From contig JAURWC010000023.1 in the NCBI GenBank assembly GCA_030655135.1, forward strand, positions 1 through 64,000: a stretch of 64,000 bases of DNA, read 5' to 3'. Position numbers and translations under genes: made by a program. The stretch is from Hyphomicrobiaceae bacterium. Its GTDB lineage: Bacteria > Pseudomonadota > Alphaproteobacteria > Rhizobiales > Hyphomicrobiaceae. Shown in pieces: positions 8,352 through 52,715 of the stretch (positions are counted from its first letter, which is position 1; each line of letters begins with the position of its first letter). The notes under the pieces were generated by a model. The model was not told where the DNA came from. It did not search any database and worked only from the letters and a program-made list of their open reading frames with translations.

Positions 8352-8555
8352 TTAGTCGCTTCGCGGGCCCCGCGGCAAGCCCAAGGGAGCTGAACTCTCC
8401 TCGCAATTTGCCGATTCCGGCGCCGTTTCGTCATCCCGCCGCGCCCGCGCTTGCGCCTTGCGCTTCTGCAGGTTGGCCCGCAGCTCTTGCTCCAGCCGCA
8501 TCTGCCGCCGCTCGGCCTGCGTCAGTGGCTTTGCCTTGTCCTTACGTCCGTCCAT
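8352..8555 (-). CDS. Small basic conserved protein
   Basis: About 67 aa, beginning MDGRKDKAKPLTQAERRQMR and continuing with a charged helical stretch (ELRANLQKRKAQARARR). Similar short proteins with an AER..ELRANL..RKAQ.R core are common in Rhizobiales as unnamed genes near housekeeping loci. No catalytic motif, membrane segment or signal peptide is seen. The C-terminal part is low complexity. The start was chosen at the conserved-looking Met; an earlier ATG (8588) would add 11 residues. Function unknown; nucleic-acid contact is only a guess from charge. Confidence 0.6.
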   Translation of the reverse strand: MDGRKDKAKPLTQAERRQMRLEQELRANLQKRKAQARARRDDETAPESANCEESSAPLGLPRGPRSD

Positions 8556-8753
8556 TGCCTCATCTGCGCCTCTGCGGCAAGTTGTCAAGCTTCCGCCAGC
8601 TCATGCAATAGGCGGAAAAACTCTGGACTGCCAGCCTCACAAAACGAGCCGAACGCGCTTGCCGGGGCGGAAGCCTTATGGCAGTGTCGCGCCGCTTCGC
8701 GAGGATGATCGTCACGTGAGACGCGCCCTCGCCGTTCGCATTTCAACCGGTCC

Positions 8754-8828
8754 GCTGCTGTAGCTCAGGGGTAGAGCACTTCGTTGGTAACGAAGAGGTC
8801 GTGGGTTCAATTCCCACCGGCAGCACCA
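8754..8828 (+). tRNA. tRNA-Thr (anticodon GGT)
   Basis: The cloverleaf folds fully: acceptor GCTGCTG with CGGCAGC (one T-G pair), D-arm GCTC..GAGC, anticodon arm CTTCG-TTGGTAA-CGAAG with anticodon GGT, T-arm GTGGG-TTCAATT-CCCAC. The discriminator is A with an encoded CCA. Confidence 0.97.
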
Positions 8829-8853
8829 GGTCGAAATACAATAATTTACTGTT

Positions 8854-8871
8854 ACATCAAAGATTTGATGT
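8854..8871. repeat. Inverted repeat upstream of folE
   Basis: ACATCAAA-GA-TTTGATGT is a perfect 8-bp inverted repeat, 26 nt after the tRNA-Thr end and about 150 nt before folE. A second short one (CCGAT-GTA-ATCGG) lies near 8914. Either could be a repressor site for folE; neither matches a site I know. Confidence 0.4.
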
Positions 8872-9019
8872 TCCGCCGCGAGCCTATTCGCTTGACGTCG
8901 GCAGTAACATTTCCGATGTAATCGGCCTAACTTCACCTTCAAGGCCGCGCCAATTGGCTGTTCTGCTCAAGAACGGGCGGCCGAACCTTCCCGCACCATT
9001 CCTCGGAGTGCCGTTGCCA

Positions 9020-9628
9020 ATGACAAAGAAGCCCGCAAAAGGCGACGTGCTGCACGCCACCGGAAAACCTACGCGCGAGGAAGTTGAAAACGCCGTGCGT
9101 ACCATCATTCGCTGGGCTGGCGACGACGTTTCGCGTGATGGCCTGCACGAGACGCCGGCACGCGTCACGCGCGCTTATGAAGAGTATTTCAAGGGGTATG
9201 GCGAAGACCCCGAGGAGATCCTGCAGAAAACCTTCGAAGAGATCGAAGGCTACGATGAAATGATCGTGCTGCGCGGCATACGCTTCGAAAGCCATTGCGA
9301 ACACCACATGGCGCCCATCATCGGCCGCGCGTGGGTTGGCTACATCCCCAATGGCCGCGTCGTCGGCATTTCCAAGCTCGCCCGCGTCGTCGACGCCTTC
9401 GCCAAGCGCTTGCAGATCCAGGAAAAAATGACGGCGCAGATTGCCAACATTATCGACCAGGTGCTGCAGCCGCAGGGCGTCGGCGTCATCATCAAGGCAG
9501 AGCACCACTGCATGACCACGCGCGGCGTCCACAAGCCGGGCACGGACCTCGTCACCAGCCGCATGCTCGGCGTGTTCCGCGACAATCCGATTACGCGCCA
9601 GGAGCTGTTGTCCATGGTCGAAGATTGA
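9020..9628 (+). CDS. folE: GTP cyclohydrolase I
   Basis: A 202-aa type IA GTP cyclohydrolase converting GTP to 7,8-dihydroneopterin triphosphate for folate and pterin cofactors, relevant for C1 metabolism. The zinc ligands are all present: Cys93 and His96 in [11 protein letters not shown], and Cys164 in [20 protein letters not shown] and [13 protein letters not shown] are family hallmarks. The start is the ATG at 9020 ([10 protein letters not shown]). The reading frame is open further upstream through the tRNA but has no merit there. The SDR gene begins 2 nt after the stop, so the two are probably co-transcribed. Confidence 0.97.
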
Positions 9629-36106: not shown

Positions 36107-36445
36107 ATGAACGCGACCTCTCTCGATGAACTGCGAGCCCAGGCGGCGAAGTCTCCGCAGGCACCAGGGGATACGCCCGTCACGCCGCCAACACTCCCCA
36201 GCGACGAGAAGATGGAGCAGATCCGCCAGCTGCTGTTCGGCGACAAGCTGGAGGCCAACGCCGGCCGCCTTGCCTCTCTGGAAGCCCGCCAGAAGGAATT
36301 TGAACAAACGGTACTGCAGCGGCTGGACGTCATATCGCAGCGTCTCGACGCGCTCTCGCGTGACGTGCTCGCCGACCGCCGCGCCGCCTTCGACGAGTTG
36401 TCGCGCGCCATGCACGATCTCGGCAATCGCGTCCGCGGCATCTAG
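36107..36445 (+). CDS. Coiled-coil protein, first gene of the GTPase/OmpA operon
   Basis: 112 aa, soluble. A Pro-rich first third (SPQAPGDTPVTPPTLPSDEK) precedes a continuous coiled coil (residues about 42-108: ASLEARQKEFEQTVLQRLDV, ISQRLDALSRDVLADRR). A short motif EQIRQLLFGD at residues about 36-46 resembles DRLKELLFDTE at the start of the next gene's product, suggesting a shared docking helix. The stop is 21 nt before the next start. Function unknown; I expect an adaptor that pairs with the cytoplasmic part of the OmpA-like protein. Confidence 0.7.
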   Translation: MNATSLDELRAQAAKSPQAPGDTPVTPPTLPSDEKMEQIRQLLFGDKLEANAGRLASLEARQKEFEQTVLQRLDVISQRLDALSRDVLADRRAAFDELSRAMHDLGNRVRGI

Positions 36446-36466
36446 CGGTACGGGAGTTATGCCGGC

Positions 36467-38527
36467 ATGTCGCAATCTGTCGACCGCCTGAAAGAACTGC
36501 TGTTCGACACGGAGGCTCGTGCCCTCTCGGATGTGCAGCGACGTCTTTCGAAATCGGAATCCGATCTGCTGTCGCATCGCCGCGAGTTAGCCGAGCGGCT
36601 CGACGAGGTCTTTGCGCGCGCCGGAACCGAAGAGCGCTTTCGCCTTTCCGTTGCCTCAGTGCTCGACCGCGCCTTGCGCCACGCCGAAACCGAACGCCAC
36701 GCCGAGCTGTCAGCAGCCGTCGCCCCTCTGATCGTACGCACGATCCGGACAGAAATCACCAACAGCCGCGACGAACTTGTCGACGCCCTGTATCCCATTA
36801 CAGGCCGCATGGTGAAGGCCTACGTCGCCAGCGCGATTGCTGATCTCGCCGCACAGATCAACCGCAAGGTCGAAGGCAACCCCGTCATGCTGCGCTTGCG
36901 CAGCCTGATGTCCGGAAGGTCCGTGTCAGAACTCGCATTGGCCGACTCCAATACGTTGAAGGTTGAAGAGATCTATCTCATTCGCCGCGGTACGGGCGAA
37001 CTCGTCGGCCGCTGGCCGCTGGCCGAGGAACACAACCGCAGCCAGGCCATGAGCGGCGTGCTGGCCGCGATCAACGAGTTTGCCAGCGACGCCTTCGGCA
37101 ACGACGGCTCATCACTGCGCCGGATCGACATGGGCGATGCCTGCGTTTATCTGCGCGCCTCTCCACTGTACTTGCTGGCTGCTCGCTGCACCGGCGCAGC
37201 ACCCGCCAGCGCCGAACGCTTGCTTGATGACGCGTTGCTGTCCACGATCGAGCGCTGTCAGACGTTGACGGCGAACGCGCCAGTCGTGGGCATGCAGCAC
37301 CCGCCGCCCTATCAAAGCCAGCTAGGCCGGCTTTCCGATCAGCTCTCGCTCGGCTTCAGCGGCATATCGGCCAGCGAACGCCGCTCGTCAGCCTCTCCCG
37401 CACTCGTGCTGCTGGGGCTCATTGCTCTGGCACTGGCCGGCATGGGCGCGTGGATCGTGCTCGACCGCTACTTCGTTCACCGCGCACAGGACATCGCGCA
37501 AGCCGCCATCGCCGCTACCCCGGGCACCAAAGGATACCTCGTCAATATCGACGTCAGCAGTTTTGGCCGGCGTGTTGCACTTACCGGCCTGATGCAGGAT
37601 GACTCTGTCAAAGCAGCGCTGTTGCAGCGCCTTCACCACGATCTACCCAGCACTGAAATCAACGACCGGCTTACACCACTGCCCGGCGTGCATGGCAAAA
37701 TCGGCCCTGCGATCGAACGCGCGTCTGTAACAGCCTCGTTGCAGCGAGCCGCGCTGCGGCTTGAGCAAGCCACGGCCGACCTGCCGCAGATGGCCGCCGG
37801 CGCGAAAGATCCTGCCCATCGCGACTTGCTCAATCGCGCTGCATCGCTCGCCACGAAATCCGCACGCAATCTCCGCGACGAGGCAAGCGCGCTCTACATA
37901 AAGCCCCGCGACCAGTCGAAACTCAGCGATCAGCTCCGCCAGCTGGCTGCAGCTATCGGCGCTATTGCCGGCGGCGACGCCCCGCCCGCCGCGATCGAAC
38001 CTGCCAGTCAATCTGAAACGGCACCGGAAAGCGCTAGGCGGCTAGAACTTGCAGCGGATCAACTGGCGACCATCGTCGCCGCCGCCTTCCAGGCAGATGC
38101 TGTCCGCCGCAACCTTCCACCACCCGCACCCCAGGTCGTTCGCGCGGCCGATATTACGGCTTTCGAGCGCCTTTCCGTCTTCGTGCGCACACATGCCGTG
38201 TTCTTTGGAGACGACCTGAACTACCGCCGTGACGAGCAAGCCGCCAAGACCTTGGACGACCTTGCCGCCCTAATGCGCGAAACCGATGCCTTGGTGCGTA
38301 TCGTCGGCTATACCGATGCCAAGGGTAGCGCCGACCGCAACACGGCACTCAGCGAGAACCGCGCGCGCAAGATTTTCGACGCGCTGACGACACGCGGTGT
38401 GGCAGCCTCAAGGCTCGTCGCCGTTGGCCGTCACGACGCCAACCAAATTGCATCCCTTATCGGCGAAACGAGCCCGAACCGCCGCGTCGAGTTCGAACTC
38501 GGCTTCGACGGCGAAAGCAGCCAATGA
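36467..38527 (+). CDS. Inner-membrane OmpA/MotB-like protein with long cytoplasmic N-terminus
   Basis: 686 aa. The first 300 residues are cytoplasmic: a helical start (VDRLKELLFDTEARALSDVQ), the block ELVDALYPITGRMVKAYVAS, and a region (about 165-270, VEEIYLIRRGTGELVGRWPL then MSGVLAAINEFASDAFG) that reads like a roadblock/longin-type alpha-beta sensor. One membrane helix follows (about 312-333), then a periplasmic linker and a C-terminal OmpA peptidoglycan-binding domain (about 571-684; VRIVGYTDAKGSADRNTALS). No signal peptide is present, so it spans the inner membrane with its OmpA domain on the wall. The stop overlaps the GTPase start (ATGA). Confidence 0.85.
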   Translation: MSQSVDRLKELLFDTEARALSDVQRRLSKSESDLLSHRRELAERLDEVFARAGTEERFRLSVASVLDRALRHAETERHAELSAAVAPLIVRTIRTEITNSRDELVDALYPITGRMVKAYVASAIADLAAQINRKVEGNPVMLRLRSLMSGRSVSELALADSNTLKVEEIYLIRRGTGELVGRWPLAEEHNRSQAMSGVLAAINEFASDAFGNDGSSLRRIDMGDACVYLRASPLYLLAARCTGAAPASAERLLDDALLSTIERCQTLTANAPVVGMQHPPPYQSQLGRLSDQLSLGFSGISASERRSSASPALVLLGLIALALAGMGAWIVLDRYFVHRAQDIAQAAIAATPGTKGYLVNIDVSSFGRRVALTGLMQDDSVKAALLQRLHHDLPSTEINDRLTPLPGVHGKIGPAIERASVTASLQRAALRLEQATADLPQMAAGAKDPAHRDLLNRAASLATKSARNLRDEASALYIKPRDQSKLSDQLRQLAAAIGAIAGGDAPPAAIEPASQSETAPESARRLELAADQLATIVAAAFQADAVRRNLPPPAPQVVRAADITAFERLSVFVRTHAVFFGDDLNYRRDEQAAKTLDDLAALMRETDALVRIVGYTDAKGSADRNTALSENRARKIFDALTTRGVAASRLVAVGRHDANQIASLIGETSPNRRVEFELGFDGESSQ

Positions 38528-39024
38528 GCGCGCCCGCATACAAAGTCATGCTGCTGGGGCAAATCGGTGTCGGCAAAAGCTCGATCGTCCAGCGTCTGGT
38601 ATTCGATCGCTTCGAAACATCCTACAAGCCGACTATCGGCGTCGACGTTTATCGCTACGAGGCCGAGGCCGATGATCGCCCTGTTCCCATGATCGTGTGG
38701 GACAGTGACGGGAACCTGGGTGATGCAATGTTCCGCCACGTCTACCTGAAGGAAGCATCCGCAGCTCTGATCGTCGGCGACATCACGCGCCAGGATACGA
38801 TCGACTCGATGCCGGCCATCGCCGCTGCTTTCCGCACGCGCCTACCGGGCCGCAGCGTTTCATTCCTCGTCAACAAGACCGACCTTTGGGATGGACAGGC
38901 ATTGTTCGATGCCGAGTTGGCCCGCGATGGAGAACTCATATTTCGCACCAGCGCGCTGACCGGCGACAATGTTAAGCGCGCTTTTGCGGAAACGGCCAAG
39001 GCCATCGTGCGGCGCACGGCATGA
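38524..39024 (+). CDS. Ras/Rab-like small GTPase
   Basis: 166 aa single-domain G protein of the Ras superfamily. P-loop GQIGVGKSS (residues 12-20), switch I KPTIGVD with Thr37, switch II VWDSDGN (residues 58-64), NKTD and the SAL motif near residue 145 are all in place. The catalytic Gln of WDTAGQ is replaced by Asn64, so intrinsic hydrolysis may be slow and a GAP-like partner needed. No lipidation motif at the C-terminus. Stop and start codons overlap by 4 nt with both neighbours, an OmpA-like membrane protein and a histidine kinase. MglA is the nearest bacterial analogue by role; the sequence looks more Rab-like. Confidence 0.87.
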   Translation: MSAPAYKVMLLGQIGVGKSSIVQRLVFDRFETSYKPTIGVDVYRYEAEADDRPVPMIVWDSDGNLGDAMFRHVYLKEASAALIVGDITRQDTIDSMPAIAAAFRTRLPGRSVSFLVNKTDLWDGQALFDAELARDGELIFRTSALTGDNVKRAFAETAKAIVRRTA

Positions 39025-40187
39025 CGGCGGCGTTGTCGCGAATGCGGGATGCGCCGCTCGTCAGCGCCAGCAGATTGCTCGCCGAACGCGGCTTCTACGG
39101 CATTATCTGGGTAAACAGTGATCTCGCCGTTTCAGCGCGATATGGCGACCTCGTCGGCTTCGTCGACGTCGGCGCACCATTGACCGATAGCCTTCTCCCG
39201 TTCGCCGGTATGGAGCAGGACCTCCTGACGCTGGTGAACAAACCGCATTCGGTGCTCGACGTGCCCTCCGTCACGATCTTCACGAAGCACGATCGGACAC
39301 CGCGCCTGAACCTGGCAGCTGTGTGGTCGCAATCCGAACAGAGCATCCTGGTGCTCGTTTCGCGTGCCGTATTGAGTTCCGACTTGGAAGTAGAGCTCAA
39401 CCGGCAGATCCGCGCGCGCCTCATCGCCGAGGCTGATGTCGTGGCCAAGTCCGTAGAACTGCAGCGGGCCAATGGCGACCTGCAGCAGTTCGCGTCGATC
39501 ATCTCTCACGACCTTAAGGCGCCCATGCGCGAGTTGCGCTTTCTTGCCGACGATGCCGATACCCTTTTGGCTGCCGGCGATATCGATCAAGCGCGGCAAA
39601 CGTTATTGGCAATGCGGCAGCAGTCGCGCCGGATGTCCGATATGATGTCGTCCCTGCTCGGCTACGTCACGGCGGCGCAGAGGTCAGAAGCCCTCGAAGA
39701 CATCGACACGGCCGCACTGGTGACAACGATCGTCGAGAGCCTCCCCCGGCCCGCCGGAATGACGATCAACATCGACGGCCGCTGGCCGAAAATGACGACG
39801 CTTGCGGCGCTACTCGATCTCGTCCTGCGCAACCTGATCGACAACGCCATATCTCATCACGACAAGGACACCGGCATCATTTCCGTTGCGGTCGTCGAGG
39901 AAGAAGAAGCGCTGGAGATCAGCGTAACCGATGATGGGCCAGGCATCCCGCCGGAACACCAGACGGCGATCTTTTTGCCGTTCAGAACGCTCGCGGCCGC
40001 TGGCGCCAACGCCAGCAGCAGCGGCATGGGGCTCGCGATCGTGGAGCGTGCTCTTTCGAGCATAGGGGGCAGCATCAACGTCGCATCCGATGCCCCGAAG
40101 ACACGTGGAACCAGTTTTCGAGTACGTTGGCCAAAGACGATCTCTGCAATGCTGAAAAACCGGTCGACATCACCCTTGGCAGGGTGA
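39021..40187 (+). CDS. Soluble histidine kinase coupled to the GTPase
   Basis: 388 aa with no membrane helix. The N-terminal 120 residues are PAS-like (GFYGIIWVNSDLAVSARYGD). A coiled linker leads to the H-box SIISHDLKAPMRELRFLADD and a full ATPase domain: N-box NLIDNAISHHDK, G1 DDGPGIPPEH, G2 SSGMGLAIVERAL. The start overlaps the GTPase stop (ATGA), so stoichiometric synthesis is likely. The PAS-like region and the GTPase could form one switch. Output probably passes to the receiver gene 36 nt downstream. Confidence 0.88.
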   Translation: MTAALSRMRDAPLVSASRLLAERGFYGIIWVNSDLAVSARYGDLVGFVDVGAPLTDSLLPFAGMEQDLLTLVNKPHSVLDVPSVTIFTKHDRTPRLNLAAVWSQSEQSILVLVSRAVLSSDLEVELNRQIRARLIAEADVVAKSVELQRANGDLQQFASIISHDLKAPMRELRFLADDADTLLAAGDIDQARQTLLAMRQQSRRMSDMMSSLLGYVTAAQRSEALEDIDTAALVTTIVESLPRPAGMTINIDGRWPKMTTLAALLDLVLRNLIDNAISHHDKDTGIISVAVVEEEEALEISVTDDGPGIPPEHQTAIFLPFRTLAAAGANASSSGMGLAIVERALSSIGGSINVASDAPKTRGTSFRVRWPKTISAMLKNRSTSPLAG

Positions 40188-40223
40188 CAAGCTGCGGTCG
40201 CCGAAGTAACTGGAAAATTAATT

Positions 40224-40679
40224 ATGGCCGCATCTGAAACGGGTAGCGCTTTTCTTGAACGGAAGAGCACCGTGAGCAAGCAGCGCACCGCGTTGCCGGA
40301 TTTGCGCGACGTGCTCGTGATCGATGACAACGATGTGGATGCCAAAAGGCTGACCGCAACCCTGCGCGTCATCTTGGGTTATGAAATCCAAGTGCGCCGC
40401 GCCGCAACGATTGCAACAGCGCTTGATTGCGTCATTGAACGCAAGCCGGATCTTATCTTCCTCGATGACGTTCTAAAGCCGAGCGACAGCGCGACGGAAA
40501 CCATCCCTTTTCTGCGTCACGCCAACTACACCGGCCCGATCATCGTCGTGAGCGGCGAATTCACGCGCAACCGCCACGTGGAGTTACGCGCCGGCGGCGC
40601 TACCGAAATCATCCATAAGGACGACGTCGACAGCGTGCGGCTAACAGAGGCGATGGTTCAGGTCTTCAGCGGCGGATAG
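40224..40679 (+). CDS. Single-domain response regulator of the GTPase operon
   Basis: 151 aa. After a 25-residue variable start comes the receiver: VLVIDDNDVDAKRLTATLRV, phospho-acceptor in LIFLDDVLKPSDSA, Ser/Thr in IIVVSGEF and Lys in EIIHKDDVDS. No output domain. It may act on a target by contact or send phosphate further. It is 36 nt behind the kinase gene. A GTG at codon 17 is a possible alternative start. Confidence 0.85.
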   Translation: MAASETGSAFLERKSTVSKQRTALPDLRDVLVIDDNDVDAKRLTATLRVILGYEIQVRRAATIATALDCVIERKPDLIFLDDVLKPSDSATETIPFLRHANYTGPIIVVSGEFTRNRHVELRAGGATEIIHKDDVDSVRLTEAMVQVFSGG

Positions 40680-40732: not shown

Positions 40733-41428
40733 ATGGCAAGCTCCTCAGTATCGTCGCGATGGTATCACCCCGTCTCGGTCGCACGCGCCTTCATTGCCCG
40801 ACCGAAGCTGCTAGTCGCCATCGGCATCGGCCTGATCCTTTACCTCGTCTTGCCGCAGACCCTGGCCGGCTCGGCCCGGACTACGTTGGCCTGGGATGCC
40901 GGTGCCTTCGTTTACCTGGCCGGCGCCGTCTGGATCATGACAGGAGAAGGCCCCGCGGATATTCGCAAGCGCGCAGCCGATCACGACGAAAGCGCGCTCA
41001 TCATTCCGATGATCGTCGCGGCGGCGATCGCTGCGTGCTTTTTGGCGGTTGCCGGAGTCCTTTCGGAAGCCAAAGCGGCGGCAGCCGACACCAAGCCCCT
41101 TTATCTTCTGCTGGCCGGAAGCACGATCGCACTCTCTTGGTTCGTAATGCAAACAGTGTTCACCATCCATTACGCCCATGAGTTTTACGCCCCGCGCGGG
41201 GGAAGCGATAAGCCTGAAAGTTGCCTCGGCTTTGCTGGCGAGGAGAAACCCGACTATTGGGACTTCCTCTATTTCTCATCGACGATAGGTGCGACGTCAC
41301 AGACGTCGGACACCGAGGTCAGCACATCGAAGATGCGGCGGCTGGTGACAGCACATTCGATAATATCGTTCTTTTTCAACACGATAGTTCTGGCCCTCAT
41401 GATAAATATTGCCGCCAGCATGATCTGA
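40733..41428 (+). CDS. DUF1345 membrane protein
   Basis: 231 aa with five or more helices (LLVAIGIGLILYLVLP, AGAFVYLAGAVWIM, IIPMIVAAAIAACFLAVAG, LLAGSTIALSWFVMQTVF). The DUF1345 hallmark is present: FTIHYAHEFY, then DYWDFLYFSSTIGATSQTSD and the last helix FFFNTIVLALMINIAASMI. The pore-like SxxTIGxTSQTSD segment recalls two-pore K-channel regions; transport is speculation. It follows the response regulator by 53 nt on the same strand and may belong to that operon. Confidence 0.85.
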   Translation: MASSSVSSRWYHPVSVARAFIARPKLLVAIGIGLILYLVLPQTLAGSARTTLAWDAGAFVYLAGAVWIMTGEGPADIRKRAADHDESALIIPMIVAAAIAACFLAVAGVLSEAKAAAADTKPLYLLLAGSTIALSWFVMQTVFTIHYAHEFYAPRGGSDKPESCLGFAGEEKPDYWDFLYFSSTIGATSQTSDTEVSTSKMRRLVTAHSIISFFFNTIVLALMINIAASMI

Positions 41429-47213: not shown

Positions 47214-48152
47214 ATGTCCGTGAAGAAACCCGCCCCCCGCCACTTCCTCGATCTTGATCTGATCGACGCCGCCACCCTGCGCCGCATCATTGATGCAGCG
47301 CACGAGATGAAGCGCAACGGCAAGCGCGTGCCGGAAAATCTGCGACCCAGATCAATCGCCGATGACGTGCTGGTAATGATCTTCGAGAAGCCGTCGACAC
47401 GCACGCGCATCTCGTTCGACGTTGCCATGCGCCAACTCGGCGGCCAAAGCATCGTCCTCAACCACATGGACCTGCAGCTGGGCCGCGGCGAGTCCGCCAT
47501 CGACACCGCGCGCGTCATCTCGCGCTACATCGACATCATCATGGTGCGCGCGAACTCGCACGATACGCTGCGCGAACTGGCGAAGTATGCCACCGTGCCG
47601 GTCGTCAACGGACTGACCGACCGTACCCATCCCTGCCAGGTGATGGCCGACATCCTGACCTTCGAAGAACACCTCGGCCCGATCAAGGGCCGCACCGTCG
47701 CGTGGATCGGCGACGGCAATAACGTCGCTGCGTCCTGGATGCACGCGGCCGTCCGCTTCGGCTTCACGCTCAATGTCGCGTGCCCGAAGGAACTGGCGCC
47801 CCACGCCGACGTGACGGAGTGGGTCAAGCGCGAAAAGGGCCAAGTGCAGATCATGCACGATCCGGTCGCTGCGGCCACCGGCGCTGATTGCGTCGTCACC
47901 GACACCTGGGTTTCCATGGGTGACAAGGATGCTGACCGGCGCAAGGCGTTGCTGAAACCTTTCAGTGTCGACGCCGCCTTGATGGCGCAAGCGGCCAAGA
48001 ACGCCATCTTCATGCATTGCCTGCCCGCCTATCGCGGGCATGAGGTGACTGAACAGGTGCTAGAGGGCCCTCAGTCCGTCGTATTCGATGAGGCCGAAAA
48101 TCGCCTGCACGCGCAGAAGGCGATATTGGCTTGGTGCCTCGGCGCGTTCTGA
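47214..48152 (+). CDS. argF: Ornithine carbamoyltransferase
   Basis: 312 aa, making citrulline from ornithine and carbamoyl phosphate. The carbamoyl phosphate site [11 protein letters not shown], the [11 protein letters not shown] block, the ornithine-binding DTWVSMGD and the [11 protein letters not shown] loop are all present. It follows argD by 35 nt; in related genomes hslO often follows, but here an SMR pump gene is convergent at 12 nt. Confidence 0.97.
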
Positions 48153-48164
48153 GAGGCACTCGCG

Positions 48165-48506
48165 TCAGTGCATGATCGAGTTCGAGAACGTATTGACGAC
48201 GATCACTCCGGCCACGATCAGCGACAGCCCAACGAGGGCAGGCGTATCCAGCGATTGCTTGAAGATGAAATAGCCGACCAGCGCAATCAGCACGATGCCG
48301 ACGCCGGACCAGATCGCATAGGCGATGCCGACCGGAATGGCCTTCAAAGTCACCGATAACAGGAACAGCGAACCGCCATAGCAGCACGCCATCAGCAGCG
48401 TCGGCAATGGTTTGGTAAACTGCTGCGAGGCTTGCAGAGCGGCGGTGCCGGTCACCTCCAGGCAGATCGCAAGCAACAGAATGGACAGTGCGGCAGTTTG
48501 GGTCAC
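48165..48506 (-). CDS. Small multidrug resistance (SMR) transporter
   Basis: 113 aa with four helices. The membrane Glu essential for coupling is present in AICLEVTGTAALQ; later blocks IPVGIAYAIWSGVGIVLIAL and LVGLSLIVAGVIVVN are EmrE-like. It should export quaternary ammonium or guanidinium compounds. I set the start at a GTG (48506) because GAGGA lies 7 nt upstream; an ATG 14 codons earlier would add a hydrophilic tail with no ribosome site. Confidence 0.9.
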   Translation of the reverse strand: MTQTAALSILLLAICLEVTGTAALQASQQFTKPLPTLLMACCYGGSLFLLSVTLKAIPVGIAYAIWSGVGIVLIALVGYFIFKQSLDTPALVGLSLIVAGVIVVNTFSNSIMH

Positions 48507-48602
48507 GGCAATCCTCGATGTTTCGTGTTTCGAGGGGCACCCGAACACTTCGAGGGGTCTACCGCAAGCGGAGTATTGCAGGTGGGCTTAACGCCGTGCT
48601 GC

Positions 48603-48638
48603 CAAAACAAATCCGGCGGACCTTGGCCCGCCGGTTTG
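48603..48638 (-). terminator. Terminator of the small secreted protein gene
   Basis: On the minus strand CCGGCGG-GCCAAGGT-CCGCCGG is followed by ATTTGTTTTGG. The perfect 7-bp stem is extended by flanking A-T pairs. Confidence 0.6.
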
Positions 48639-48646
48639 GCATTAAC

Positions 48647-48955
48647 TCAGAGTTTGCAGATCGTGGCCTGGCCGTGGCACTTCCAACCGAACGTGCCACC
48701 CTTCGAGCAGCGATACTTGCGCGGTCCGAACGTGTAGCCCGGTGTCTTGCCGCTGGACATCCAGGCGGCCCACGCGCCCCAATCGGTCGCCTGCAGCAGC
48801 ACTTCGTCAACCTGGAACTTCGCGTCGGCTTCGGAGCCGGCCTCACCCACGCCGGCCTTTTTGAAACACGTCTTTGCCTCAGCAGCACCAACGCTCGTCA
48901 ACGCCAAGCCTGCAACGGCGGCGACGGCGATCATCGATTTCTTGAACCCGATCAT
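48647..48955 (-). CDS. Small secreted protein with four cysteines
   Basis: 102 aa. Signal peptide MIGFKKSMIAVAAVAGLALT with cleavage near AEA-K. The mature part (about 75 aa) has Trp-rich ATDWGAWAAWMSSGKTPGYT and Cys in KTCFKKAG, KYRCSKG, WKCHGQATICKL. I recall such proteins as unnamed exported proteins in Hyphomicrobiales. A clear terminator follows. Role unknown. Confidence 0.68.
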   Translation of the reverse strand: MIGFKKSMIAVAAVAGLALTSVGAAEAKTCFKKAGVGEAGSEADAKFQVDEVLLQATDWGAWAAWMSSGKTPGYTFGPRKYRCSKGGTFGWKCHGQATICKL

Positions 48956-49109
48956 CGGTTTCTCTCCCCAACTGTGAAAACGGCGGCATGCCAAGGCGAA
49001 TGTGCCCGACTCTGCCGCCGTTGCAAGATTGGAATCGTTTTCTTCCCTCGATAATACCGAAGAATTTCTCCGTTCGTGGCGGCGCGGTGACGCCGCTGAC
49101 AACGGTGCT

Positions 49110-49325
49110 TCAGCCCGATTGCTGCAGATTCACCGCTTTGGGACCTTTGCCGCGCTTATCCGGCTCCGTTTCAAAAGAGATTCGCGACCCTTCGTTCAAG
49201 TGATTGATTCCCGATTGTTCCACAGCTGTCACGTGCACAAACACGTCCTTGCCGCCGTCGTCAGGCGTGATGAAGCCATACCCTTTTTGCGTATTGTAGA
49301 ACTTAACAGTACCTGTCTGCCGCAT
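49110..49325 (-). CDS. Cold-shock domain protein
   Basis: 71 aa, CspA-like OB fold that binds single-stranded RNA/DNA. RNP1-like KGYGFITPDD and RNP2-like DVFVHVTAVE are intact; it begins TGTVKFYNTQKGYGF. Ribosome site GGGAG lies upstream. The leader between 49326 and 49552 is about 225 nt and may be the regulated cold-shock leader. Convergent genes do not overlap it. Confidence 0.93.
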   Translation of the reverse strand: MRQTGTVKFYNTQKGYGFITPDDGGKDVFVHVTAVEQSGINHLNEGSRISFETEPDKRGKGPKAVNLQQSG

Positions 49326-49552
49326 TGCGACGTCTCCCTTCCCACTTCAAGAAGCCAGTGCTCTGCAGCATGTGATCGCGCAACGACCGACATCTTCAAA
49401 AGCGTACGGAGTTTGGTCTGATCATCGAAGTTTGAAGCAAAATAAGGCTTCATGTTCATATCGTCACAAAATCCGCGATCTGAATATCAGCTGGCGTCTC
49501 AGTATCGGCACGGCTTCCGCGTGGTGCAAGCGATATTCCGTACAAGGCTCAA

Positions 49553-50419
49553 CTAAGCCGACGGCGAGTTTCCGGTTTCAGACAACCAATCCAGCCGCCA
49601 TCGTGGCGTTTGCGTGTGACCGAAAACATCTGCCAAAAACGGCAGTAACACCTTCAATTTGTTGACGGTTGTGAATGGAGGATTCAGGAGGATCAACCCC
49701 GTTCCGCAGAGCGATTGCGCGTCATGGAACGGCTTGATCATCAATTCCGCGCGCAAAATTTTATCAACACCTGAGGCCGCGAGCTGACGCTCGAAAGCCT
49801 CAATGGGCGGGGCTGACTTGATCGGGTACCACAAAATGACCGACCCAGTCGCAAACCGCCGCACGATCTCCCGCAGCCCGGTCAGCAGCCGGTCCAATTC
49901 TCCTGCCTGCTCGAATGGAGGATCGATCAGCACCAAGCCCCTACGCTCCTTTGGCGGCAGAAATGCCTTCAGCGCGATCCACCCGTCGAGATTGGTAACC
50001 TTCACTTGCTTGTCACGCGCAAACAGCTGTGCGAGCGCCGCGGCGTCCGTAGGATGCAACTCGTTGGCAATGATGCGATCGTCGCGCCGGATCAGACGGC
50101 GCACGAGCAGCGGGCTTCCCGGGTAGGTGCGCAACTCACCGCCCGGATTTCCTGCGCAAACGGCCTCCACATACGGCCGCAGGATGTCATTGATTTCATC
50201 AGACTTGGGCGCTGACAAAAGGCGGGCAATGCCATCTCGCCACTCCCCTGTCTTGGTCGCCTCGTCGCCATGCAAATCGTAGACGCCCGTGCCCGCATGC
50301 GTATCAATCACGCGGAATGGTGCTGGCTTCAGCTTCAAATGTTCGATGACAAGGGCCAGCGTTGCGTGCTTCAGCACGTCCGCGAAATTGCCCGCGTGAT
50401 AAGCGTGACGGTAGTTCAT
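49553..50419 (-). CDS. rlmJ: 23S rRNA (adenine(2030)-N6)-methyltransferase
   Basis: 288 aa. It begins MNYRHAYHAGNFADVLKHAT, the RlmJ hallmark. The SAM site is RVIDTHAGTGVYDL, and the catalytic motif IDPPFEQ is in GLVLIDPPFEQAGELDRL. RlmJ methylates A2030 of 23S rRNA. The start codon and its G-rich ribosome site lie at the foot of a perfect 12-bp hairpin. rpoH is 45 nt upstream on the same strand. Confidence 0.95.
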   Translation of the reverse strand: MNYRHAYHAGNFADVLKHATLALVIEHLKLKPAPFRVIDTHAGTGVYDLHGDEATKTGEWRDGIARLLSAPKSDEINDILRPYVEAVCAGNPGGELRTYPGSPLLVRRLIRRDDRIIANELHPTDAAALAQLFARDKQVKVTNLDGWIALKAFLPPKERRGLVLIDPPFEQAGELDRLLTGLREIVRRFATGSVILWYPIKSAPPIEAFERQLAASGVDKILRAELMIKPFHDAQSLCGTGLILLNPPFTTVNKLKVLLPFLADVFGHTQTPRWRLDWLSETGNSPSA

Positions 50420-50447
50420 TCCCCCACGTCGCACAGACGTGGGGGAA
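50419..50447 (-). promoter_or_regulatory. Hairpin covering the rlmJ ribosome-binding site
   Basis: On the minus strand TTCCCCCACGTC-TGTGC-GACGTGGGGGAA, a perfect 12-bp stem. Its 3' arm holds GGGGGA, the only ribosome site of rlmJ, and its last base is the A of the ATG. It follows the rpoH stop by 17 nt and has no T-run. Confidence 0.65.
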
Positions 50448-50464
50448 CAATCAATCCGTTATGC

Positions 50465-51355
50465 TCAGTCCGCCATACTCATGCCTGCGGTCTTCGCAGA
50501 GCCTTGAACAGCCTTCTGAACTTTTTCAAAGGCCCTCACCTCAATCTGCCGGATTCGCTCGCGCGACACGCCGAATTCGCTGGATAAATCTTCCAGCGTC
50601 ACCGGATCATCCGCAAGACGCCGCGCCTCGAAGATACGGCGTTCGCGATCGTTCAATGATCCAAGCGCCTTCGTCAGGAACGACTTGCGCTGATCGAACT
50701 CTTCGGTCTCAGCCAAACGCTCTTCCTGGGACGGTGTATCGTCGACAAGCCAGTCCTGCCACTCACCGCTTTCCTGATCGGCACGCACGGGAGCATTCAG
50801 CGAGCTATCGCCGCCCAGACGCCGGTTCATCGAAACGACATCGCCTTCCGTCACGCCGAGACGCTTGGCAATCGTCTTGACGTGTTCAGGTTTCAGGTCG
50901 CCGTCTTCCAGTTGCTGCAACTGGCTTTTGGCGCGCCGCAGATTGAAGAACAGCTTCTTCTGCGCAGCCGTGGTGCCCATCTTCACGAGCGACCAGGAGC
51001 GCAGGATGTATTCTTGAATCGACGCGCGGATCCACCACATCGCATAGGTGGCGAGACGGAAACCACGCTCGGGTTCGAAGCGCTTTACGGCTTGCATGAG
51101 CCCGACGTTGCCTTCCGAGATGACCTCGCCGATCGGCAGGCCGTACCCACGGTAACCCATGGCAATGCGCGCAACCAAGCGCAGATGGGAGGTGATCAGC
51201 TTCTGGGCTGCATCGGAATCGCTATGCTCTGTCCAGCGCTTGGCAAGCATGTACTCCTCGCCAGGCTCGAGCATCGGAAATTTGCGGATCTCCTCCAAGT
51301 AACGCGACAGGCCGCCGGCATCGCCGGCGATCGTGGGGAGTGTTCTGCTGGCCAT
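50465..51355 (-). CDS. rpoH: Heat-shock sigma factor RpoH (sigma32)
   Basis: 296 aa. Region 2 has LITSHLRLVARIAMGYRGYG and GFRLATYAMWWIRASIQEYI. The RpoH box QKKLFFNLRR distinguishes it from RpoD. Region 4 has LEDLSSEFGVSRERIRQIEV. It directs transcription of chaperone and protease genes. The neighbouring hslO is itself a heat/oxidation chaperone, transcribed divergently across a 380-bp gap. Ribosome site AAGGAA is close to the ATG. Confidence 0.97.
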   Translation of the reverse strand: MASRTLPTIAGDAGGLSRYLEEIRKFPMLEPGEEYMLAKRWTEHSDSDAAQKLITSHLRLVARIAMGYRGYGLPIGEVISEGNVGLMQAVKRFEPERGFRLATYAMWWIRASIQEYILRSWSLVKMGTTAAQKKLFFNLRRAKSQLQQLEDGDLKPEHVKTIAKRLGVTEGDVVSMNRRLGGDSSLNAPVRADQESGEWQDWLVDDTPSQEERLAETEEFDQRKSFLTKALGSLNDRERRIFEARRLADDPVTLEDLSSEFGVSRERIRQIEVRAFEKVQKAVQGSAKTAGMSMAD

Positions 51356-51737
51356 TTCCTTATGTCGCGAGGGTGCCGGTTGCCCGTGATCTCGCGTCCC
51401 TCTTTTAGATCGAACTCTAACGCTGCTTCGTCTTACGTCTCATAAGCCCCGTTGGTTTCCGCCTGGGCTATGAGGAATGAACGTGGGACAAAGCTAGTTC
51501 CGTCGTTTTCAAACCGCACAGTACATATTTAGCAGGCGCCAGCAAATTACTGCTTTGTAATTTCCATGACGGGTTGTGCGTTAGAGTGGCTGCCGCCACG
51601 TTGTAGGCGGGCAAAATGGGCTTACATCGCGGTTTCCGGCCACGTGTCATGCATCCGCTGCATACCCGGTTAGCATCTACCTCTTACCTCGGGCGGTCGG
51701 CGGAGACGGCTCGGCGTGCCCGCGCTAAAAGGACGAT
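51356..51737. other. Divergent rpoH/hslO intergenic region
   Basis: About 380 bases without a credible gene. It must hold both promoters, but I could not assign a sigma32 or sigma70 pair with confidence. An AACG..GTTCC pair near 51479 has a 13-bp gap, too short for an EcfG site. Confidence 0.4.
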
Positions 51738-52715
51738 ATGAGCGACCAAACTCCTCTCCCGATCCTGGAAGATCTACAGGACGACATCGTGCTGCCGTTC
51801 CGCACCGAGAAATCGCGCGCTGTTGGCAGATTGGTGCGCCTTGGCGCCTGCGTCGACACGATCCTGTCCCGGCACGACTATCCCGAGCCCGTGAGCGAAG
51901 CCTTGGCGCAGGGGCTCGCGCTGACGTCGATGCTGAGTGCGGCGCTGAAGCCCGGCGGCAAGCTGAGCCTGCAAACCAAGACGGACGGACCGCTCCGGGT
52001 TCTCATCTCCGATATTGAGCTACCTGGCCGTTTGCGCGGCTACGCCAGTTTTGACCGTGACCGGATTTCTGAACTTGCGGCAGCAGGCGGCAAGGTGCAG
52101 CAAGCGGCGCTCCTTGGCTCCGGCCATCTCGCGCTGACGTTTGATCCTGGAGATGGACGAGACCAGCATCAGGGCGTCGTGCCGTTGGAAGGCCAATCGC
52201 TGACGGCAGCAGCCCACACCTATTTCCGCCAATCCGAACAGCTGCCGAGCTTCATTCGCCTGGCCGTGGCTCGCCATCGGCTGCCCGGCGCCGATGGCTG
52301 GCATTGGCGCGCCGGCGGCTTGATGATCCAGCACCTCGACGCCGATCCGGCCGAAGAAAACGAAACCGACGCCGCCGGCAGTGCCGAAGATTGGCAGCGC
52401 GTCCGCCTGCTCGCCGCAACTGTCGAGGACCACGAGTTGCTGGATCCGACGCTCGCTCCGGAACGGCTGCTCTTGCGCCTCTTCCACGAGGAAGGCGTTC
52501 GTACATTCACGCGCCAGCCTGTCCACGCCCACTGCCGCTGTTCGCGAGAGCGCGTGCAGATGTTTCTCACTCGATTTGGACGCGACGAACTCGCCGACAT
52601 GCGCGAGCCGGATGGCACGTTGGGCGTCACTTGCGAATTCTGCAGCGCCAAATACACTTTCGAGCTCGACGAGGTTGGCCAGGCGCCCGGCGACGAAAAG
52701 GATAGCGGCCCGTGA
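51738..52715 (+). CDS. hslO: Redox-regulated chaperone Hsp33
   Basis: 325 aa. The N-terminal substrate domain begins DDIVLPFRTEKSRAVGRLVR; the redox switch near the C-terminus has HCRCSRERV (C-X-C) and CEFCSAKY (C-X2-C), the four zinc-binding cysteines. Hsp33 is activated by oxidation with heat and holds unfolding proteins. The stop overlaps the holC GTG start by 4 nt. Its divergence from rpoH fits joint stress control. Confidence 0.96.
   Translation: MSDQTPLPILEDLQDDIVLPFRTEKSRAVGRLVRLGACVDTILSRHDYPEPVSEALAQGLALTSMLSAALKPGGKLSLQTKTDGPLRVLISDIELPGRLRGYASFDRDRISELAAAGGKVQQAALLGSGHLALTFDPGDGRDQHQGVVPLEGQSLTAAAHTYFRQSEQLPSFIRLAVARHRLPGADGWHWRAGGLMIQHLDADPAEENETDAAGSAEDWQRVRLLAATVEDHELLDPTLAPERLLLRLFHEEGVRTFTRQPVHAHCRCSRERVQMFLTRFGRDELADMREPDGTLGVTCEFCSAKYTFELDEVGQAPGDEKDSGP

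Follow-up and report, generated by a model that had tools for sequence, protein, structure and literature searches.

Rup GTPases are the prokaryotic group closest to the Rab, Rho, Ras, and Ran families, according to the accessible text of PMC4915359. Their gene neighborhoods have been outlined previously (Wuichet and Sogaard-Andersen, 2014; PMC4316618); in the accessible portions of that paper, the Group 1 neighborhood consists of a gene for a cytoplasmic coiled-coil protein, a gene for a domain of unknown function (DUF, often followed by a transmembrane (TM) segment and an OmpA domain), the GTPase, and an output protein. The output is typically a GGDEF/EAL protein or a histidine kinase, with an invariant glutamine in its N-terminus. 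The same portions note the missing G3 glutamine of Rup GTPases, propose a conservon-like membrane signaling complex, and set Rup apart from MglA partly because no work with MglB homologs is predicted; no characterized Rup member was known in 2014. In the open-licence literature, we found no later experimental or structural work on a Group 1 Rup system. Here, we describe such a locus in a 64,000-nucleotide stretch of DNA (the window) from a Hyphomicrobiaceae bacterium (GenBank assembly GCA_030655135.1, contig JAURWC010000023.1, positions 1 to 64,000).

Measured against the accessible description, the window locus matches a Group 1 Rup-type system by its gene neighborhood, sharing with that group a GTPase without the G3 Gln, a coiled-coil gene, a DUF-TM-OmpA gene, and a kinase output. 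A preliminary description of the locus knew of no account of this combination, which was wrong, since PMC4316618 describes it; its outline of five genes on one strand, with two 4-nt overlaps and the domains given below, was confirmed by open reading frame (ORF) analysis, Pfam, and hydropathy. Unlike Group 1 as described, the window pairs its kinase with a separate response regulator, its GTPase belongs to a separate deep clade that has a DxDG motif, and its DUF can be assigned a predicted longin/roadblock fold. That the locus functions as a Group 1 Rup-type G-protein signaling operon, in which a signal would pass from wall to longin domain to GTPase to a PAS "socket" and on to the output, is a proposition that we judge about evenly balanced. 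Its features, all on the forward strand, are as follows.

36107..36445, +: short coiled-coil protein, 112 amino acids (ORF; helix motif QIRQLLFG)
36467..38527, +: membrane protein, 686 amino acids, with a helical stalk, a longin-like domain, one TM helix, and a periplasmic part with OmpA
36953..37384, +: predicted longin/roadblock-fold domain, residues 163-306 of the membrane protein (AlphaFold, Foldseek, VIA)
37406..37462, +: single TM helix, about residues 314-332 of the membrane protein (hydropathy 2.48 at residue 314)
38231..38452, +: OmpA peptidoglycan-binding domain, residues 589-662 (PF00691, 9e-13, 48.9 bits, cut-off 27.2)
38524..39024, +: Rab/Ras-like small GTPase of the Rup kind, 166 amino acids (PF00071, 1e-23)
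38701..38715, +: GTPase G3 motif D-S-D-G-N, lacking the catalytic Gln of Ras
39021..40187, +: soluble histidine kinase, 388 amino acids, with N-terminal PAS and signaling helix (HATPase_c 7e-23, HisKA 8e-5)
39054..39374, +: predicted PAS socket, kinase residues 12-118 (AlphaFold, Foldseek, profile)
39405..39413, +: Q129-I-R131, start of the kinase linker helix (alignment)
40224..40679, +: single-domain response regulator, 151 amino acids (PF00072, 7.6e-10, 39.4 bits, cut-off 30.2)

The cytoplasmic domain of the OmpA protein is predicted to adopt a longin/roadblock fold, with longin the better fit. An AlphaFold model of residues 1-307, based on 53 aligned rows, reached a mean predicted local distance difference test score (pLDDT) of 86.5, with values of 84-97 per ten-residue block from residue 161, except for 70 at 271-280. 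Predicted strands at 165-173 and 179-183 are followed by a helix at 189-210, strands at 218-221, 226-231, and 235-242, and helices at 247-270 and 282-306, giving the order beta-beta-alpha-beta-beta-beta-alpha-alpha. The best Foldseek matches in the PDB included Ragulator (8.8e-5), TRAPP, Mon1-Ccz1, Ykt6, and MglA-bound MglB. VIA-align placed a Lokiarchaeota longin first (8yqg_A; Z 15.5, root-mean-square deviation 2.8, 133 residues), with the next structure 3 Z units lower, and aligned free roadblock domains over ~100 residues (3kye_C, Z 11.2; MglB 6hjm_B, Z 10.5). The two folds are distinguished by a permuted or displaced outer helix (accessible text of PMC3521125 and PMC10933270), and longin is preferred here because of the two C-terminal helices and the longer alignment. 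The preliminary description had called this region roadblock-like; the confident fold prediction bears this out, although longin is the closer description. Domains of this fold type serve as platforms for the regulation of Rab, Rag, and MglA GTPases. An attempt to establish a roadblock identity by sequence was dropped, as searches with Pfam and PDB profiles produced no usable match and fold comparison alone gave a signal. At four loci (L195, L197, L205, and L206), the longin-OmpA proteins measure 931-1023 amino acids versus 686 in the window; the extra length lies mostly between the longin and OmpA domains, and the size of the wall-reaching part is very variable.

The GTPase, at 166 amino acids, lies under the 240-residue Rup limit and keeps the GK[ST], T, DxxG, NKxD, and SA motifs; its nearest solved structures are Rab5 and Rab6. 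Among 145 GTPases (named and unnamed sets that overlap, with some genomes present twice), none has Gln at the position of Ras Gln61, which is occupied by N, D, S, G, or E in 123 alphaproteobacterial rows and by E in 14 of 22 distant rows. Close to its C-terminus, the window GTPase also lacks a cysteine that could carry a lipid anchor. Because both the catalytic Gln and the C-terminal Cys are absent, slow hydrolysis is expected, along with partner-dependent catalysis and membrane placement. The window's own genome holds five Ras matches, only one of which is in a small ORF, the other four lying in open frames of 478-631 amino acids (E 2.7e-5 or weaker).

A tree of 48 GTPases, constructed without MglA or eukaryotic rows, divides into two deep clades (100/100 split, branch 1.49). 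Clade A carries cyclase, GGDEF-EAL, and hybrid kinase outputs and includes Nostoc; clade B, which is alphaproteobacterial, has the DxDG motif, and contains the window, carries histidine kinase, HisKA_3/NarL, and LuxR outputs. The six output classes require six changes on this tree versus a minimum of five; thus, the output class was mostly inherited with the GTPase and occasionally swapped. One GTPase (L135:5132-5812, on the contig of L072) has an in-frame insert of ~65 residues after about position 48.

The N-terminus of the window kinase is predicted to form a PAS-plus-helix socket. An AlphaFold model of residues 1-165 (52 rows, pLDDT 89.2) showed the PAS order followed by one helix at 119-164, and the best Foldseek matches were LOV and PpsR PAS domains (E from 3.5e-4). 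Three matches to the socket profile occur in the window's own genome, where the PAS part is covered only by the operon's kinase, the single full socket. Elsewhere, the enzymes associated with the GTPase are diverse. Pfam identified class III cyclases in all 14 such proteins tested (L184-L191, L193, L195, L197, L201, L205, and L206), GGDEF-EAL outputs at three loci (L196, L198, and L200), and hybrid kinases at three more (L194, L199, and, with Hpt, L204 from Nostoc). HisKA_3 kinases stand beside NarL-type regulators in L145 (Mesorhizobium loti UFLA 01-765), L202, and L203, and a 223-residue protein encoded straight after the GTPase in L071 (L071:6258-6929) joins the socket to a LuxR-type DNA-binding domain, a layout that would let the GTPase act on transcription in a single step. 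At this locus, the genes for the coiled-coil and longin-OmpA proteins are divergently oriented. At the 14 cyclase loci (8487-9557 in both L205 and L206), a cyclase whose N-terminus resembles the kinase socket follows the GTPase in a layout reminiscent of Ras-controlled adenylyl cyclase; on plasmid pWSM1497 of Mesorhizobium sp. WSM1497, the annotation reads OmpA family protein, Rab family GTPase, and adenylate/guanylate cyclase.

Profile comparisons linked the sockets of kinases with those of cyclases (71%, E 3.7e-5), of hybrids with cyclases (98%, E 7e-15), and of hybrids with kinases (89%, E 2.1e-6), and the socket hidden Markov model (HMM) matched the HisKA_3 proteins of L145, L202, and L203 and the LuxR-type protein of L071 at E values of about 1e-14 to 1e-21. 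That the enzyme behind the socket varies while the coiled-coil, longin-OmpA, and GTPase genes are constant argues that the output lies downstream of the GTPase. A Gln supposed to complement the GTPase active site, located where the socket helix begins, is found in 14/14 cyclases and 3/3 hybrids, and in 3/3 GGDEF-EAL proteins, where the alignment is unsure. Among kinases of the window's clade, Gln occupies position 129 in 31 of 56 rows (the window has Q129) and position 128, the column aligned with the Gln of cyclases and hybrids, in 13 of 56, the match of this column to the Gln described in 2014 being a guess, and Arg131 is present in all 53 of the 56 rows that have a letter there. These rows were selected for an ATP-binding motif and supplemented manually with L119, L070, L054, and L071; one genome appears twice (L054 and L104), and L118 was left out for its ambiguous letters. 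If the socket completes the GTPase active site, one may speculate that in the window clade it does so with this Arg.

The five-gene set is real, conserved, and more than a product of chance. A tblastn search with the window proteins recovered all five genes, with order and strand preserved, at 28 of 43 loci, a count that takes in the window locus; the 15 incomplete loci include ones truncated by the end of a contig and ones that lack a gene. HMM searches, in which only matching ORFs were counted, found the complete window order at 36/80 named loci, which are the 80 best of 123; some genomes are shared between the two sets. The gene order extends beyond the one genome on which the preliminary description was based. 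The longin-OmpA gene is present in 73 of the 80 named loci and stands directly before the GTPase, among matching ORFs, in 71; in the seven loci without it, the GTPase lies at most 1.4 kb from the contig start. The coiled-coil gene was matched in 71/80 and a socket protein in 72/80, using a socket profile built partly from the downstream kinases of these loci, so that the independent matches are those found upstream or on the opposite strand (20/80).

The genes also travel together across genomes. Among 100 relative genomes, 43 have the GTPase; all but one of these also encode the longin-OmpA cytoplasmic part (42/43), versus none of the other 57 (Fisher about 1.5e-27), and 41 encode the PAS part of the socket, again versus none (Fisher about 4.5e-26), all figures being uncorrected for shared descent. 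In the genome that misses longin-OmpA (G016), the GTPase sits on a 3.6-kb contig holding only the end of the OmpA gene; the socket misses are G054, with its GTPase at a contig edge, and G065. Matches covering only the helix end of kinases (profile positions 142-178, or 133-178 in G081) were not counted as sockets; these comprise six genomes without the GTPase (G045, G056, G070, G072, G081, and G087) and second matches in G009, G012, and G076. Presence and absence of the GTPase set are mixed inside three genera (g8, g10, and g25). The support for the earlier proposal of joint action by the wall protein, GTPase, and kinase lies in this co-occurrence. In a broader sample from the window's phylum, 49 of 398 genomes contained the cytoplasmic longin-OmpA domain, and the gene set also resides on a plasmid of Nostoc sp. 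UHCC 0926. Apparent "orphan" GTPases in Bradyrhizobium, Mesorhizobium, and Methylocystis were mostly rejected as such, the profile having found a socket protein upstream, on the opposite strand, or elsewhere. Of the seven genomes that were searched for lack of a socket at the GTPase locus, six carry one at another site. A natural fusion joining the GTPase to the longin protein or to the kinase would have demonstrated coupling directly, but none was noticed in the tabulated loci; a 702-residue ORF in L194 was rejected as a candidate, being a kinase frame that, read from farther upstream, overlaps the ORF of a distinct GTPase.

The OmpA gene and the GTPase gene overlap by 4 nt at 38524/38527, and the GTPase and kinase genes at 39021/39024; the former overlap recurs in 25 of 42 loci, for which start codons were chosen by rule and gap lengths are approximate. 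In the OmpA protein, hydropathy windows of at least 1.6 start at residues 306-316 and nowhere else, and the kinase has no hydrophobic stretch at this threshold, indicating one membrane helix in the former and a soluble kinase. The HATPase_c match of the kinase (81.6 bits) exceeds its Pfam cut-off; the HisKA match (23.0 bits) falls under its cut-off of 26.9, and the sequence holds an S-H-D-L-K-A-P box. The receiver acid pair, phospho-acceptor Asp, and Lys can be read in the response regulator. The coiled-coil gene matched no Pfam family above cut-off, but it has in common with the N-terminus of the OmpA protein a helix motif around "LLF" (hhalign 46%, E 2e-4, 26 columns), which hints that the two proteins pair.

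Several known systems combine related parts. Like actinobacterial conservons (CvnA-D), the window encodes a histidine kinase, a Ras-like GTPase, and a (predicted) roadblock-type partner together. Conservons, in which the histidine kinase is a membrane protein with a HAMP domain, are not known to have an OmpA anchor. Unlike the window, they possess a free roadblock protein, an MglA-family GTPase, and no response regulator (accessible text of PMC4316618); in the window, the kinase lacks a hydrophobic stretch and showed no match to HAMP (E up to 1), the locus includes a response regulator, and no gene matched roadblock. As in MglA/MglB, a bacterial Ras-like GTPase is accompanied by a candidate regulator of predicted roadblock/longin fold; in contrast to that pair, the candidate is a membrane, wall-binding protein, and the GTPase resembles Rab. 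The Pfam roadblock family PF03259 (Robl_LC7) had no match at E up to 0.1 in the window's own genome, which is 99.9% complete, while a control search was positive in 4 of 14 genomes. The locus further resembles the Mon1-Ccz1, TRAPP, Ragulator, and GATOR1 platforms in encoding a longin-type fold beside a Rab-like GTPase, but differs from these eukaryotic and Asgard platforms in that its protein is single-pass, peptidoglycan-linked, and bacterial. Within the open-licence literature, no paper was found on bacterial longin domains or on a longin domain with OmpA and a bacterial GTPase; judged by that literature, what is new here is the assignment to longin, the PAS socket, and the wider range of output classes. 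Cyclases, HisKA_3/NarL pairs, and LuxR outputs are unnamed in the accessible text of PMC4316618, although its table S2 may list some.

In the mechanism that we propose, which rests on the kinase form of the system, the OmpA domain would anchor the membrane protein to peptidoglycan, and wall spacing or tension would be relayed through the single TM helix to the cytoplasmic longin domain. This domain, presumably a dimer like other longin/roadblock platforms, would recruit the soluble GTPase and set its nucleotide state. In one such state, the GTPase would dock on the PAS-plus-helix socket and shift the kinase between kinase and phosphatase activity, with the single-domain regulator passing the phosphate on; the short coiled-coil protein may pair with the stalk of the membrane protein. 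The direction of the signal, from wall to output, is favored because the output enzymes vary. More broadly, the notion that a bacterial Rab-type GTPase and a longin regulator, the latter fixed in the inner membrane and tied to peptidoglycan, drive interchangeable enzymes (various kinases, a nucleotide cyclase, and a transcription factor) via one PAS socket strikes us as a little less than evenly likely.

Several points weigh against this scheme. The physical contacts, the sense of regulation (GTPase-activating or guanine nucleotide exchange), wall sensing, signal direction, and the target of the regulator are all elements that we infer. The window's cytoplasmic part matched no Pfam family, so that longin is recognized at the level of fold only; one of 53 relatives gave a weak match to Fuz_longin_1 (E 0.003), and a sequence-profile search of the PDB with the domain found no relative, the best hit being an ATP synthase subunit (E 0.3). 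The idea that the socket is common to all outputs was dropped, as the N-termini of the three GGDEF-EAL proteins showed no significant match to it (4.5%, E 0.009 against cyclases; 0.2%, E 0.3 against kinases). The output Gln reported as invariant in Group 1 Rup is, from the aligned residues, probably variable in the kinases of the window's clade, where the Arg is kept. Genome G065 (locus L069, 2.3 Mb) has the coiled coil, longin-OmpA, and GTPase, but no socket was found, and its output may be too diverged or lost. In G496, likewise, no socket was found in the genome either, and three loci of genus g20 have no adjacent response regulator.

The main rival to allosteric control is localization of the output. 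The GTPase and its wall-anchored platform might position the output enzyme (at a pole, septum, or prostheca) in an MglA-like manner, with activity following location. The anchor is the cell wall, the relatives of the window are Hyphomicrobium-like, and Hyphomicrobium forms stalked, budding cells; moreover, output enzymes that differ chemically would suit a shared localizer. A PAS domain followed by a long helix into the catalytic part is, however, typical of conformational control, and we consider placement without switching unlikely. Slightly less likely still, in our view, is a signal running in reverse, as has been proposed for actinobacterial conservons, with the PAS kinase sensing a cytoplasmic cue and controlling the GTPase, and the wall protein serving as output. 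PAS domains commonly sense ligands, and the conservon GTPase has been taken as an output (accessible text of PMC4316618), but a response regulator is present at the window locus, and the socket is also found on cyclases and a LuxR-type DNA-binding protein, which are sensible as outputs.

The operon might also be a set of co-expressed neighbors in which the GTPase and the kinase pair are physically uncoupled. Contact between GTPase and kinase is, after all, deduced, and in loci of Mesorhizobium, Bradyrhizobium, and Methylocystis the GTPase and the socket kinase are encoded at separate sites. Yet those separated genomes that have a socket keep one full match each, and the co-occurrence spans 100 genomes; retention of the socket despite separation, together with this co-occurrence, points to function and not operon drift. 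We regard co-expression without coupling as highly improbable.

Downstream of the response regulator, the next gene encodes a DUF1345 protein (40733-41428). It was seen in none of the other 42 loci, some of which are too short to contain it, and is therefore probably not a member of the unit. A promoter and terminator scan of the operon returned one promoter-like site versus 1.2 expected and three terminator-like sites versus 4.3, from which no claim is drawn. Farther along the window, positions 48001-52000 have a GC content of 0.583 versus 0.61-0.65 elsewhere; this low-GC stretch includes ~1.4 kb (48153-49552) without an ORF of 200 amino acids and an rpoH-like gene at 50465-51355, identified by eye.

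If the broader notion of one longin-regulated GTPase driving interchangeable enzymes is correct, the Rab-longin pairing of eukaryotic membrane traffic would have a bacterial counterpart in a wall-sensing pathway, one built on the nearest prokaryotic relatives of Rab, Ras, Ran, and Rho. The predicted fold also bears on the origin of Rab-longin control, be it an innovation of eukaryotes and Asgard archaea, something older, or a product of convergence. The predicted longin fold in the adjoining wall protein names a likely Rup regulator and offers a direct test, and the PAS socket points to the possible target enzyme of each Rup GTPase, including in genomes that encode the two at separate sites. 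Cyclase- and kinase-bearing versions of the system could be tested in ordinary rhizobia, Hyphomicrobium, or Nostoc.

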